Of a stretch of 55,043 bases of DNA, positions 13,950-54,239 are shown piece after piece (the stretch's first letter is position 1; each line of letters starts with the position of its first letter). A program made the translations under genes and the position numbers. This DNA is from Alkalicoccus chagannorensis DSM 18086 (lineage in GTDB: Bacteria; Bacillota; Bacilli; Bacillales; Salisediminibacteriaceae). Under the pieces are notes generated by a model. It was not told where the DNA came from, did not search any database, and saw only the letters and a program-made list of their open reading frames with translations. Where the stretch lies: assembly GCF_000429725.1 (NCBI RefSeq), contig NZ_AUCK01000026.1:1-55043 (forward strand), written 5' to 3'.

Positions 13950-14192
13950 GGTTCTAAAATAAATCTGGGGCAGAGGTTCCTTTCCGTGGCATCTTTTCTT
14001 CCGTTTCAGGCGGACGCCTGCTCTCCACTTTCCTCGCATTGCGATGAGAGTGGAGGGCGGCGCTTGATCCCTCTGGCGTCGCCGCCCTCCATACTGAAAA
14101 GGTGTCGTTTTGTTTTTTTGAGAGAATCCTAAGTGCGCCATTTGAAAAATGTCTGAGCATGCCTGAGCCTGTCTAACATATGGATGAGAACC
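13950..14192 (+). repeat. Family C element, copy C1 (MITE-like, about 243 bp)
   Basis: Starts GGTTCTAAAATAAAT and ends ATGAGAACC, so the termini are inverted. The direct repeats GTAACTTC (13942-13949) and GTAACGTC (14193-14200) flank it, matching 7 of 8. It holds the B/C structured core at about 14004-14087 (GGCGGACGC, TCGC-ATT-GCGA hairpin, 'GATCCCTCTGGCGTCGCCGCC' minus its last base). The conserved right arm GAGCATGCCTGAGCCT recurs in C4 and, inverted, C2. The GGTTC ends and 8-bp duplication recall ISL3-family transposons. Confidence 0.75.
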
Positions 14193-14446
14193 GTAACGTC
14201 CGACGCCAACTGTAACGACCAGGAGGCGCTCGGCCTTTTTTGCATCATTGGAGCATAAGCACACAGGGGAATTTACAGCGGGGTGCATATAATCTGGAAG
14301 GAAAGGGTAGGAGGAATAGAGGTGTTCTGTGAAGCAGGAAAATGAGTGATACAGACGATCATGAGATAATGATACAGGGACATAGGGTTGTGAAATGCTG
14401 TACAACTGTTCATGGGAGATTTGAGTAATACAGCCTGTCAAAAGCG
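14193..14446. other. Non-coding region upstream of pdhA
   Basis: About 250 bp between repeat C1 and the pdhA promoter. I see no gene with an SD, no riboswitch and no clear operator. Confidence 0.4.
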
Positions 14447-14476
14447 TTGACTAAAACTCTGACTTTCGTGTAAACT
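14447..14476 (+). promoter_or_regulatory. Sigma-A promoter of the pdhABCD operon
   Basis: TTGACT (14447-14452), 18 bp, TAAACT (14471-14476). It leaves a long leader of about 130 nt before pdhA. Confidence 0.6.
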
Positions 14477-14612
14477 TGAGGTTGTGAGCAGGATGTTGTA
14501 TTAGTGTTATTGATTTAATTCGTGTTACAGGCAGGTGTGGTTCAGTTGCTGCTCCGCGCAGACAGAACATGAACTGTACTTGTTTAAATTATATGGATGA
14601 GGTGAATCTTTC

Positions 14613-15704
14613 ATGGAAAAAACGAAAGAGCTGCAACAAGTGGAAGAAAAATTCCAGACTTTTCAGATTCTTGATGAGCAGGGAAAGATCGTCAACGAAG
14701 ATGCAATGCCGGAGCTCAGCGATGAACAGCTGAAAGAGATGATGACGCGCATGGTGTATACCCGTATCTGGGATCAGCGTGCAATTTCTCTTAACCGCCA
14801 GGGTCGTCTCGGCTTCTACGCACCGGTTGCCGGTCAGGAAGCTTCGATGATTGGATCCCAGTTTGCTCTGGATAAGAAGGACTGGATTCTTCCAGGCTAT
14901 CGTGATATTCCACAGATTTATTATCATGGCCTGCCACTGCATCAGGCATTCCTATGGTCCCGCGGACATTTTCAGGGAGGACAGATTCCTGAAGGCGTAC
15001 GCGTCATGATGCCGCAGATCATCATCGGTGCCCAGATCACACAGACGGCCGGCACAGCGATGGGCCTGAAAAAAGACGGCGAGCAGCAGGTCGCGGTAAC
15101 GTATACCGGCGACGGCGGTGCTTCCCAGGGTGACTTCTACGAGGGCATGAACTTTGCTGGAGCGTACAACCTCCCGGCAGTCTTTATCGTACAGAACAAC
15201 CGCTTTGCGATTTCCGTTCCCGTTGAGAAGCAGTCCGCTGCAGCGACCATCGCACAGAAAGCTGTTGCCGCCGGTATTCACGGTGAGCAGGTCGATGGCA
15301 TGGATATTCTTGCTGTCTATGCTGCAACGAAAGAAGCACGCGACCGCGGCATCGAAGGAAATGGACCGTCCCTCCTTGAGTTCATGACGTACCGCTACGG
15401 TCCGCATACGATGGCTGGTGACGATCCAACACGATACAGAACTTCAGAAGAAGACGACGAGTGGGAGAAAAAAGATCCACTTGTACGTTTCCGTAAATTC
15501 CTCGAGGAGAAAAACCTCTGGACGGAAGAAGAAGAAGAAAAAATCGTAGAGCAGGCAAAAGAAGACATTAAGGCGTCCATTAAAGATGCAGATGCTGCTC
15601 CAAAACAGAAAGTAACCGATCTTATTGACATCACGTACGCCGATGCAATGCCGGAGACCCTGCAGGAACAGCGAAGCGAATTTGAAGAAAAGGAGTCGAA
15701 GTAA
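14613..15704 (+). CDS. pdhA: Pyruvate dehydrogenase E1 component, alpha subunit
   Basis: A 363-residue thiamine-diphosphate subunit of E1, which decarboxylates pyruvate and reductively acetylates the lipoyl arm of E2. The TPP motif is visible as [17 protein letters not shown] (about 169-185) ending at NN (about 198-199). The substrate/phosphorylation-loop region appears as '[17 protein letters not shown]'. Start follows GATGAGGTG. It heads the operon pdhA-pdhB-pdhC-pdhD; pdhB follows after 3 nt. Confidence 0.98.
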
Positions 15705-15707
15705 GCT

Positions 15708-52124: not shown

Positions 52125-52158
52125 ATGGAAAGGAAAATGACAGAAAGGTTGGCTGACG

Positions 52159-53769
52159 ATGAAGCTCACATGCAGACCGCTGTTTGACACGGACAGCTTC
52201 GCAGGAAAATACATGAACAAGGATGCGGATGTAACCAGATTCTATGATTACGAATGGGATGATGAGGAAAGCCGACTGGAGGATATCGATCAAACCACCT
52301 ATCCACGCAGGGAACTGTCTGAAGCACTGACAGCCTATCAGATAAAACATGGCGGGTCCCCGCAGTCGCTGGATCATGCCAGGGCGCTCGCACATGAGCA
52401 GGCTGCAGTAGTTGTCGGAGGGCAGCAGGCCGGCCTGCTTACCGGTCCTGCTTACACCATACATAAAGCCGTCTCGATCATTCTGGAGGCAGAGCGTCTC
52501 CAGCAGAAGTGGGACCGGCCCTTCATTCCGATGTTCTGGATTGCAGGGGAAGATCATGATGTGGACGAAATCAACAACACGTTTGTTCACCATCGGCAGG
52601 AGCTGGCCCGGGAAAAGATATTTGGCCGCAATGACAAACGGACGCCGGCTTCTGAACGCTACATTAAGCAGTCGGAAGCGGACGCAGCGATCGACGCGCT
52701 CCTTGCCCACATCAACGAGACGCAGTGGACTGCGCGTCTGCGGGAAGAGCTGCGGTCGATGACCGAGGAGCCTCTTACATACAGCAGCTGGTGTGCGAAG
52801 GTGATGCTCTATTTGTTTGCTGACAGCGGGCTTGTTGTCATGGACGCACATCATCCTGATGTAAGAAAACTGGAGCAGGAAACTTTTCTCACTATGCTCG
52901 ACCGGAGCAGTGCCATCCAAGAGTCCGTGCAGCAGGCGGCGGCCGAATTTGAAAAGGGCGGATATGAAAACCCGGTGAATCTCGATAAAGAGAACATGCA
53001 CCTGTTTATCCACCACCAGGATGAACGATTTCTGCTTTACAATGAAGGAAATACGATCAAAGAAAAGAATGGCTCCCGTTCGTGGGATTATGAAGCTTTT
53101 TTTACACAGGCGCAAAAGGGAGATTTCCAGTTCAGTAATAACGTGATTACCCGTCCGGTTATGCAGGATATCCTGCTTCCCGTGCACACATTTATCGCAG
53201 GAGCCGGCGAATTGAAATACTGGGGGCTCCTGCAGGGGGCATTTCATGCTATGAACCACCACATGCCTCTGGTTCGGCCCCGCGATTCCTTTACTTGGAT
53301 ATCGAGGAAAACGAAAAAAACGATGATGGATTATCAGCTGACGCCGGAGCAGGCTGCCGACGAGACGACAGCGCACCTGCAGGAGCAGCTGAAACAGCAG
53401 TGGAAAGCGGCAGATGAATCGGCAGCAGCAGAGAAAGCAGAGCGCCTGATGCGGGAAGCGCTCAAGCCTCTCAGTGAAGTGCTCCAGGATGACCGGCAGC
53501 TTCATGACACGTACAACAAGAAAGCGGCTGCACTGATTGACGCGTATCGTCAGGATGTCACGAAAGCAGTGGATGCGAGAGTGCACGTGGACACCGTCCG
53601 GCTGGAATCGCTTGAAACCGAACTCCGTCCTGGTAATGCCAAACAGGAACGTGTACTGAATATTCTTCCTTTTCTCAATGTGTACGGACCAGATCTGATT
53701 GAGGGGCTCCTGAGACGGCTGCGGGATAAAGACACGAACACGCCCCGGGACTGGTTTATCTATCTGTAG
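52159..53769 (+). CDS. bshC: Bacillithiol biosynthesis cysteine-adding enzyme BshC
   Basis: A 536-residue protein (YllA) that joins cysteine to glucosaminyl-malate in the last step of bacillithiol synthesis. Characteristic segments are 'VVVGGQQAGLLTGPAYTIHK' (about 85-104, nucleotide-site region), FWIAGEDHDVDEINN (about 133-147) and 'GPDLIEGLLRRL' near the C-terminus, with a coiled-coil region at about 390-490. Length is close to the family norm (about 540). The SD is a rather distant AGAAAGG. Last gene of the panE cluster, followed by a terminator and mobile repeats. Confidence 0.96.
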   Translation: MKLTCRPLFDTDSFAGKYMNKDADVTRFYDYEWDDEESRLEDIDQTTYPRRELSEALTAYQIKHGGSPQSLDHARALAHEQAAVVVGGQQAGLLTGPAYTIHKAVSIILEAERLQQKWDRPFIPMFWIAGEDHDVDEINNTFVHHRQELAREKIFGRNDKRTPASERYIKQSEADAAIDALLAHINETQWTARLREELRSMTEEPLTYSSWCAKVMLYLFADSGLVVMDAHHPDVRKLEQETFLTMLDRSSAIQESVQQAAAEFEKGGYENPVNLDKENMHLFIHHQDERFLLYNEGNTIKEKNGSRSWDYEAFFTQAQKGDFQFSNNVITRPVMQDILLPVHTFIAGAGELKYWGLLQGAFHAMNHHMPLVRPRDSFTWISRKTKKTMMDYQLTPEQAADETTAHLQEQLKQQWKAADESAAAEKAERLMREALKPLSEVLQDDRQLHDTYNKKAAALIDAYRQDVTKAVDARVHVDTVRLESLETELRPGNAKQERVLNILPFLNVYGPDLIEGLLRRLRDKDTNTPRDWFIYL

Positions 53770-53884
53770 CTTCCCGTTCACCCGAGGGGAGGACACGCAT
53801 CTTCTGAGAATCGGGCTGTCCGTTGAACCGTCCAGGTTGAGTGGGCCACTGCACGAATGAAAAATAGATGAATAAAAGCAGCGT

Positions 53885-53923
53885 AAACCGACGATCAACG
53901 GGATGAAGATCGTCGGTTTTTTT
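53885..53923 (+). terminator. Terminator of bshC
   Basis: AAACCGACGATC (53885-53896) pairs with GATCGTCGGTTT (53908-53919), then a T run. Confidence 0.85.
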
Positions 53924-53930
53924 AAAGTAT

Positions 53931-54239
53931 AGGCGCTGTTAAAGCCTAGTGTTGTTATAACAAAAGTACGCCTGCGGCTCTTTTTTCTTCGCTTGCCGCG
54001 GAGACATCCTTCCGCTTTCCCTCCCTTACGTCCGGGAGGATCTTCACGCTTTCTTTATCCGCAGGCGTCTCGAAAAATAGCCTGGGCCTGCTCCGTTTCA
54101 TAAAAGTTTCTTTTCTTTCAGAAGGACGCAGCGAAGACCGGCGGGCGGACGCCTGTGGAAGCTGGAGATTTCCTCCACGGCAAGCCTGCCGAGTTGCAGC
54201 AGCGTTTTCTGTCATTATCAACAATAAACAAGAACAGAG
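53931..54239 (+). repeat. Family B-type element, copy B4 (309 bp) with 9-bp target duplication
   Basis: Flanked by TTAAAGTAT at 53922-53930 and 54240-54248. Left end AGGCGCTGTTAAAGCCTAG; reverse complement of right end CTCTGTTCTTGTTTATTGTT. The interior differs from B1-B3. CGCCTGCGG (about 53967) pairs with CCGCAGGCG (about 54060), and a second hairpin-rich block has GCGGACGCCTGTGGAAG opposite CTTGCCGTGGAGGAAAT. The target lies in the first bases of repeat A5. Confidence 0.7.

Follow-up and report, generated by a model that had tools for sequence, protein, structure and literature searches.

A 55,043-nt stretch of Alkalicoccus chagannorensis DSM 18086 DNA (the window, meaning the whole of the stretch that was analysed) contains two families of short mobile repeats, and the locus raises the question of why elements with different ends should hold the same interior, and whether that interior is a structured RNA or DNA rather than filler. 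The original prediction listed four copies of family C (C1 to C4) and three of family B (B1 to B3), all of which are present. The reading favored here, with a probability of about 0.6, is that the shared core is a foldback DNA module repeated across the order and carried as cargo by miniature elements, with the mechanism proposed below.

The ends of the two families are unrelated, as had been claimed – those of family C are of the ISL3 type and those of family B of the IS1595 type. Family C elements are about 245–300 bp long and contain no gene. C1 (13950–14192, plus strand) runs from GGTTCT to AGAACC and has a near-duplication, GTAACTTC/GTAACGTC, that agrees at 7/8 positions. C2 (22508–22771, minus strand) has the target duplication TTTTTTCG at 8/8, which was used to place its exact bounds by eye. 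The flanks of C3 (33459–33757, plus strand; read by eye) and C4 (40826–41077, plus strand) match at 6/8 only; both ends of C3 are near those of ISL3 elements in relatives. Elements of ca. 1.38 kb with PF01610 in relatives terminate in the family C sequences GGCTCTAAAATATATGTTGGGG and GGTTCTAAGTCAATTGTTGGGG or in close variants of them, and comparable ISL3 ends were found at five loci (L211, L212, L214, L215 and L230). Most C copies have one end that closely matches ISL3 elements and a second (GGTTCTCATTCACATGTT) that departs more. Target duplications agree at 7–8 of 8 positions in 20/28 rows (17/24 loci, as four loci were entered on both strands), against a null of 0.8%. With both shared terminal repeats and an 8-bp target duplication, family C would be classed as an ISL3-type MITE. 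Its own genome encodes only a broken PF01610 (ISL3) gene, the ends of which are unlike those of family C.

Family B elements are 126–206 bp long and also contain no gene. B1 (32203–32376) and B2 (46013–46187), both on the plus strand, have target duplications at 8/8 (TTTAGTAA and TATTTGTA, respectively). B3 (49028–49137, plus strand) is a short element with a shortened left end, flanked on both sides by TTCGGAAA, a duplication read by eye in a copy absent from the tabulated rows. In those rows, 18/22 duplications agree at 7–8 of 8 positions (null 0.8%). PF12762 elements bounded by GGCTCTGTTAAAG-type ends, as in family B, were found at 8/19 loci (L241, L245, L248, L249, L250, L253, L256 and L257) in a scan that required an exact 8-bp duplication. 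PF12762, the IS1595-type transposase, has a match in 15/60 relatives sampled and none in the draft genome of A. chagannorensis. Family B is a candidate IS1595-type family, called by its ends and duplications only. Of six short B copies that lack the inner hairpin, five have duplications of their own at 7–8 of 8 (L067, L070, L073, L074 and L076; L069 has 4 of 8), which suggests that stems P3–P4 of the core are not needed for B movement.

The hairpin core that both families carry is about 100 nt long and lies on opposite strands in B and C. The same ordered blocks had been proposed for the two families, and this is the case when B is taken in minus-strand orientation; it is not the case for every copy, as stem P2 is without its 5’ arm in C1 and C4, and B3 retains the outer two stems only. 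Cores were scored with a covariance model built from 22 sequences, and since B1 and C2 are among these, their scores are by construction. The B1 core (32248–32339, minus strand) scores 87.1 bits (E 5e-21), the C2 core (22619–22710, minus strand) 67.1 bits (E 1.5e-15), and the B2 core (46058–46149, minus strand) 72.5 bits (E 5e-17). The C3 core (33518–33642, plus strand) holds a 33-nt insert and scores 44.5 bits over 33518–33604 (E 2e-9). The incomplete cores score 30.0 bits in C1 (14009–14086, plus strand, E 2e-5), 26.5 bits in C4 (40886–40964, plus strand, E 2e-4) and 32.1 bits for the P1 and P2 remnant in B3 (49058–49100, minus strand, E 6e-6). Searches of the genome itself, in which 40 candidates each were scored for C1 and B1, gave 45 matches to C1 and 48 to B1, including overlaps and split pieces, and 37 to the C4 core; together with the model scores, these place the sharing beyond chance. 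Most of the copies in this genome with both ends recognised have 8-bp target duplications. There are further cores in the window in a third repeat family, at 9858–9948, 25911–26001 and 54571–54661, all on the minus strand (34.7, 33.7 and 30.5 bits). A fourth repeat contains a weak match to the core (53984–54075, plus strand, 24.9 bits, E 6e-4) that may be chance.

The observation is broader than first seen and extends well beyond the window. Within the order, the covariance model found the core in 115 out of 299 genomes, representing 58 of 116 genera, its own included; among 397 genomes sampled from elsewhere in the phylum, one has it. In other genera it is found with other ends. Recent duplication of a single element was rejected as the source of the copies – 113 distinct core sequences form 25 clusters at 80% identity – and so was a likeness limited to short GC-rich words, as alignments run from end to end across genera. 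Phage or plasmid cargo was also rejected: one core as query had no match in plasmids, a different core had none in phages, and the exact pattern of the 3’ framework was found in 0 viral contigs.

Four stems, P1 to P4, make up the fold of the core; its bulges are conserved, its inner loop is asymmetric, and there is likely an outer stem, P0, in addition. In alignments fitted to this hand-made structure, 91.6% of cells pair, compared to 35–48% in slid controls. The predicted paired changes in the central hairpin are real. A tree-aware covariation test of the author's own, applied to many copies from many genomes, found 12 of 4950 column pairs significant. Every one of them belongs to the 33-pair structure, whose other 21 pairs fall short individually. 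RNAalifold on 43 copies from this genome gave 13 pairs with one covarying, so that the genome by itself is insufficient. Single copies can behave differently: folded as DNA, the C copy L023 from this genome prefers a different structure, and the fold of L142 is no better than 30/200 shuffles. The sequence of the apical stem varies freely, whereas many letters of the internal loops are nearly invariant. Among 42 representatives, all under 85% identical, internal loops average 1.46 bits/column versus 0.39 for P4, in a comparison where model hits favor model letters; P1–P3 have 1.12–1.21 bits, so the loops are only somewhat higher than these. At least 1.5 bits were found in 17/28 loop or bulge columns, with 11/28 below that value, and five columns are identical in 42/42. 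These conserved loop letters are a better sign of selection than the paired changes. The core is a real structured element, not filler, as the original prediction had it, and the event counts that follow favor the DNA side of its RNA-or-DNA alternative.

An RNA would be expected to tolerate G.U pairs and not A.C pairs. Among 217 cores, changes from Watson-Crick pairs to G.T and to A.C are close in number, 32.6 and 27.7 on inner branches and 68 and 77 at the tips, and 33 independent close pairs include 14 changes to G.T and 21 to A.C. In a tRNA control the counts are 38 and 0, unlike the near-equal one-sided changes of the core, though the control program may draw allowed pairs only, which can flatter this contrast. 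Since the two changes are about equally frequent, unlike in tRNAs, the pairing looks to be kept as DNA rather than RNA. Some counts lean the other way: return to Watson-Crick is more common from G.T (54.8) than from A.C (35.6), raw cells have a slight excess of G.T (201 to 149), and inner nodes have 59 G.T to 18 A.C, counts that are not independent. The event counts favor DNA, though there is some tilt toward G.T in the cluster consensuses (32 to 15). This last excess would fit a structured RNA at the 3’ end of transcripts, one that would end, protect or regulate the transcripts of genes upstream and let the miniature elements sit harmlessly behind these genes, as would the covariation and the conserved loops. 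The genomic context of 89 cores also agrees with it, as most sit at gene 3’ ends – 38 have convergent frames on either side and 7 have divergent ones, 28 follow a frame that runs in the same direction and 16 are reversed – and terminator-like hairpins occur near 16/38 empty sites versus 10/114 random positions, the latter not limited to intergenic DNA. Against it, in addition to the near equality of G.T and A.C changes, folding as RNA is slightly better for the minus strand (the plus strand is better in 45/113). A known RNA was rejected, as no Rfam family reaches its gathering score in the window or at 17 loci searched with E up to 1, where the best match was a microRNA hairpin model (E 1e-4). 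Overall, an RNA function is rather unlikely.

The pairing could also be mutational only: template switching would keep the two arms of the core, a long quasi-palindrome, alike, and the fold would be unselected. Template-switch correction is reported from microbes and from RNA genes (PMC8794818; PMC7202029). Overall, the most common stem change is one of both partners on one branch (113 inner, 58 tip). At the tips, though, one-sided breaks outnumber double changes, and double changes on long branches need not be single events. By eye, one arm has been overwritten in L036, L063 and L064, leaving a long perfect palindrome. Template switching would erase mismatched loops too, yet many loop letters hardly vary and bulges hold their position across the genera aligned, making this account as a whole quite improbable. 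Part of the paired change may nevertheless come from template switching, not from selection for pairing.

The core apparently passes among vehicles by recombination. The 33-nt insert of the C3 core is also found in a B copy, L065, with which C3 groups (support 99), and L041 is a B-C chimera. The cores of B and C from this genome form one group with four cores of genome G021 (support 87), as might be expected if all cores were parts of one autonomous transposon family that had decayed into two versions, B and C. This is very improbable, as the ends point to two transposase families that are unrelated, the core has other ends in other genera, and the ISL3-type vehicles of G021 hold a core that comes from elsewhere in the tree. 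The core is also absent from the 11 IS loci searched, out of 48 fetched from relatives, and membership in an autonomous IS was rejected on these grounds.

In the foldback module reading, the core, for which no mobility of its own was seen, would travel inside miniature elements, with an IS1595-type transposase moving B and an ISL3-type transposase moving C, each in trans via the ends. As the core is common to different vehicles, it could serve as a site of homologous recombination or gene conversion by which ends and inner parts are swapped. Pairing would be kept as folded DNA, in part by template-switch correction at replication, and reading of the folded strand, by a protein or by a process linked to replication, would account for the retention of the loops. 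A more specific version is tentative and less likely than not: the core would be an order-wide hitch-hiking module on whose folded single strand selection acts, with a putative host protein reading the bulges and the CTA/GGAT inner loop, and would hop between transposon vehicles as a parasite of parasites. If the module reading is true, it is the folded shape of a piece of DNA that has been conserved, in half of the order's sampled genera, and the piece outlives its carrier transposons. It would also be a concrete case of strong covariation, the usual sign of RNA, apparently maintained at the DNA level, with consequences for the reading of covariation screens for RNA. Whether miniature elements profit from structured cargo would become testable.

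No description of the core is found among the matches listed in the open literature, and GGCGGACGCTT and AAGCGTCCGCC occur in no paper among those matches. As vehicles, the two families resemble known types. Family C is like ISL3-family MITEs in its ends, 8-bp duplications, size and lack of a gene, and unlike them in an interior made of a foreign structured core common to another kind of MITE and not seen within the ISL3 elements searched. Family B agrees with IS1595-family MITEs in the same respects, with GGCTCTGTTAAAG-type ends, and differs in carrying the foreign core of family C, reversed, and in occurring both with and without its inner hairpin. Integron attC sites and IS200/IS605 ends are folded single-strand sites with free stem sequence, conserved bulges and a variable apex; by analogy, the core would work alike.

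ERIC and REP are intergenic, high-copy bacterial repeats that are able to fold. The BOX, RUP and bcr1 stem-loop repeats (PMC2267715) resemble the core in the same three ways. The core may stand apart from all of these in its range, which takes in many genera and more than one kind of vehicle, and in its tree-tested covariation and conserved loop letters. Bhal-1 of Bacillus halodurans is an intergenic stem-loop family of 74 bp with 36 copies (PMC2267715). Like the core, it is intergenic, forms a stem-loop and is found in a related host, and Bhal-1 is possibly an earlier glimpse of the core.

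All seven small mobile repeats of the original prediction – C1 to C4 of family C and B1 to B3 of family B – were present where it had placed them. The window is one contig of a 3.52-Mb draft genome (38 contigs; C21), in which queries with C1, B1 and the C4 core gave at least 45, 48 and 37 matches, counts that include overlaps and split pieces, with the best 40 candidates scored each. From stretches of this genome, 51 cores were aligned; the B core lies on the opposite strand to the C core. At four loci (flanks of L019, L023, L024 and L027) several C elements sit at the identical point of another repeat, so the repeats nest in each other. 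PF13751 transposase matches lie at five contig ends (window 54804–55040 and contigs C7, C22, C3 and C13), and the assembly is therefore probably broken by a repeated IS with this transposase.

Judged by matching ends and target duplications, C is an ISL3-type miniature element and B an IS1595-type one. Of 31 loci scanned in relatives, five (L211, L212, L214, L215 and L230) hold PF01610-transposase elements of ca. 1.38 kb that are bounded by GGCTCTAAAATATATGTTGGGG and GGTTCTAAGTCAAATGTTGGGG or near variants. Many C copies start with GGTTCTAAAATAAATGTTGGGG and have GGTTCTCATTCACATGTT, which is less close to the element ends, at the other side; in C3 both ends are close. When an exact 8-bp duplication was required, a scan of 19 loci with PF12762 (IS1595) transposase elements showed ends of the GGCTCTGTTAAAG type at 8 of them; B starts with AGCTCTGTTAAAGCTTG. 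Among own-genome copies with both ends recognised, target duplications agree at 7–8 of 8 positions in 18 of 22 rows for B and in 20 of 28 for C (17 of 24 C loci, four being entered on both strands), compared to 0.8% in the control. The genome has a PF01610 gene only as a broken copy and no match to PF12762, and we therefore infer the movement of B and C. Among the 38 empty sites, in which three loci are represented twice, 16 coincided with a terminator-like hairpin that has a T run, versus 10 of 114 random positions, drawn from genic and intergenic DNA alike.

The claim that two families with unrelated ends share one core was confirmed and extended: the core is a genuine structured element that occurs order-wide, with unrelated miniature elements as its carriers. 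When a whole C element served as query, matches appeared in 15 of 60 genomes, the own genome included, and outside the latter these lay almost solely over the core. The exact pattern of the core's 3' framework occurred in 65 stretches among 84,980 species, all in Alkalicoccus, Salipaludibacillus, Evansella or Alkalihalobacillus, and in no viral contigs; plasmids and phages, each queried with one core from a relative, had no match. A covariance model (22 copies, hand-drawn structure) had matches in 115 of the 299 genomes sampled from the order, own included, in 58 of 116 genera, and none in the other 184; counts per genome stop at 13, a value that stands for at least 13. Among 398 genomes sampled across the phylum, its matches were the own genome and one other member of the class (E 5e-4), and six same-order genomes among those listed had no match. 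The ends around the core vary from genome to genome; IS1595-type ends flank cores on both sides also in Salipaludibacillus and in genomes G021 and G118 (a regular-expression search with no null).

The structure of the core is real. Stem P1 pairs GGCGGAC with GT-CG-CCGCC. Next come a GCTT bulge, the stems P2 and P3 and an inner loop centred on TCARCTA and GGATYTTC, while the apical stem, P4, is free in sequence. In 116 copies (113 distinct, 94 sources), 91.6% of cells were paired, versus 34.7–47.5% with the partner slid, and both-sided changes occurred in 29 of 33 pairs (slid, 18–22) and 791 cells (slid, 92–148), in alignments fitted to the proposed structure and hence biased in its favour; none of 500 shuffles reached the observed values for either. 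The predicted covariation held in a tree-aware test of our own in the manner of R-scape, where 12 of 4950 column pairs were significant (E < 0.05), all 12 within the 33-pair structure, the remaining 21 pairs failing singly; own copies alone, however, gave weak support, with one covarying pair (RNAalifold). A further stem outside P1, P0, is likely, with a perfect helix of at least 6 in 48 of 111 flanks versus 9.8% of mispaired flanks. Conservation among 42 representatives less than 85% identical was 1.46 bits per column in internal loops and bulges, where 17 of the 28 columns reached 1.5 bits and five were invariant in all 42, compared with 1.12–1.21 in P1–P3, 0.39 in P4 and 0.17 in the apical loop; these figures are an upper view, because hits to a model are biased towards its letters. 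As single-strand DNA, seven examples of our choosing folded with z-scores of −4.7 to −1.1, and L023 preferred another fold. C3 (window 33604–33640), L071 and the B copy L065 have an extra arm at the same place in the core, and a similar stretch (CTCGTCGCA) begins at 6532 in Salipaludibacillus L170.

Long loci contained 91 model hits, near-copies among them, and six of these overlap a large open frame. For 89 hits a simple caller gave flanking frames: 38 hits lie between convergent frames, 28 follow a same-direction frame, 16 precede a reversed one and 7 are placed between divergent ones. A single repeat in Alkalicoccus urumqiensis and A. luteus can contain two opposed cores that differ in subtype, ca. 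105–215 nt apart, as in L205 (1529–1627, plus strand; 1733–1833, minus strand); opposed cores were also found in L208, L182, L187, L203, L165, L185, L159 and L163. In L159 (6480–7140), the same terminator hairpin of ca. 31 bp occurs on both sides of a repeat that bears a core and has GGCTGTTGAAAAAGT-like ends, as though insertion had duplicated it.

The simplest reading of how two vehicles came to share the core is exchange by recombination: recombination through the common core would swap parts between vehicles. In L041 the left half is that of a B element and the right half that of a C element. In a core tree of 163 of 220 cores, with few columns and many open forks, own B and C cores group together with four cores of G021 (support 87), and G021's ISL3-vehicle cores are placed elsewhere; C3, with ISL3-type ends, joins the B copy L065 (support 99), a grouping that their common insert may drive. 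A search of 11 ISL3 and IS1595 loci, out of 48 obtained from relatives, found no core. Five of six short B copies without the inner hairpin (L067, L070, L073, L074 and L076) have their own duplications at 7–8 of 8 positions, and L069 at 4 of 8, which suggests that the hairpin is dispensable for B movement; alternatively, it may have been deleted after insertion.

The original prediction had allowed for either RNA or DNA. Under selection for an RNA, stems should accept G.U but not A.C. Stem cells of 113 cores hold 92 G.T and 77 A.C. Across a tree built from 217 distinct cores, each 85 nt or longer, Watson-Crick pairs changed to G.T and A.C 32.6 and 27.7 times on inner branches and 68 and 77 times at tips, with 54.8 returns from G.T and 35.6 from A.C. 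In 33 independent close pairs, the single changes comprised 14 to G.T, 21 to A.C and 12 of other kinds, and the double changes 7 clean ones and 2 others. A tRNA control (35 tRNAs, from 30 own-genome loci and further loci) gave 38 G.T and 0 A.C in 753 pairs, though the program may draw allowed pairs only. Counting against upkeep at the DNA level are the cluster consensuses (n = 25; 32 G.T versus 15 A.C) and the inner nodes (59 versus 18, non-independent). The weight of the event counts is nevertheless towards pairing upkeep at the DNA level, and with moderate confidence the core is most likely kept as folded DNA.

Overall, the most frequent class was change of both partners on a single branch (113 on inner branches, 58 at tips). 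In L036, L063 and L064, read by eye, one arm has been copied over the other, leaving a long perfect palindrome; these are candidate template-switch events. Template switching alone would erase mismatched loops too, yet many loops are well conserved. The branch-wise double changes and overwritten arms are compatible with template-switch correction (PMC8794818).
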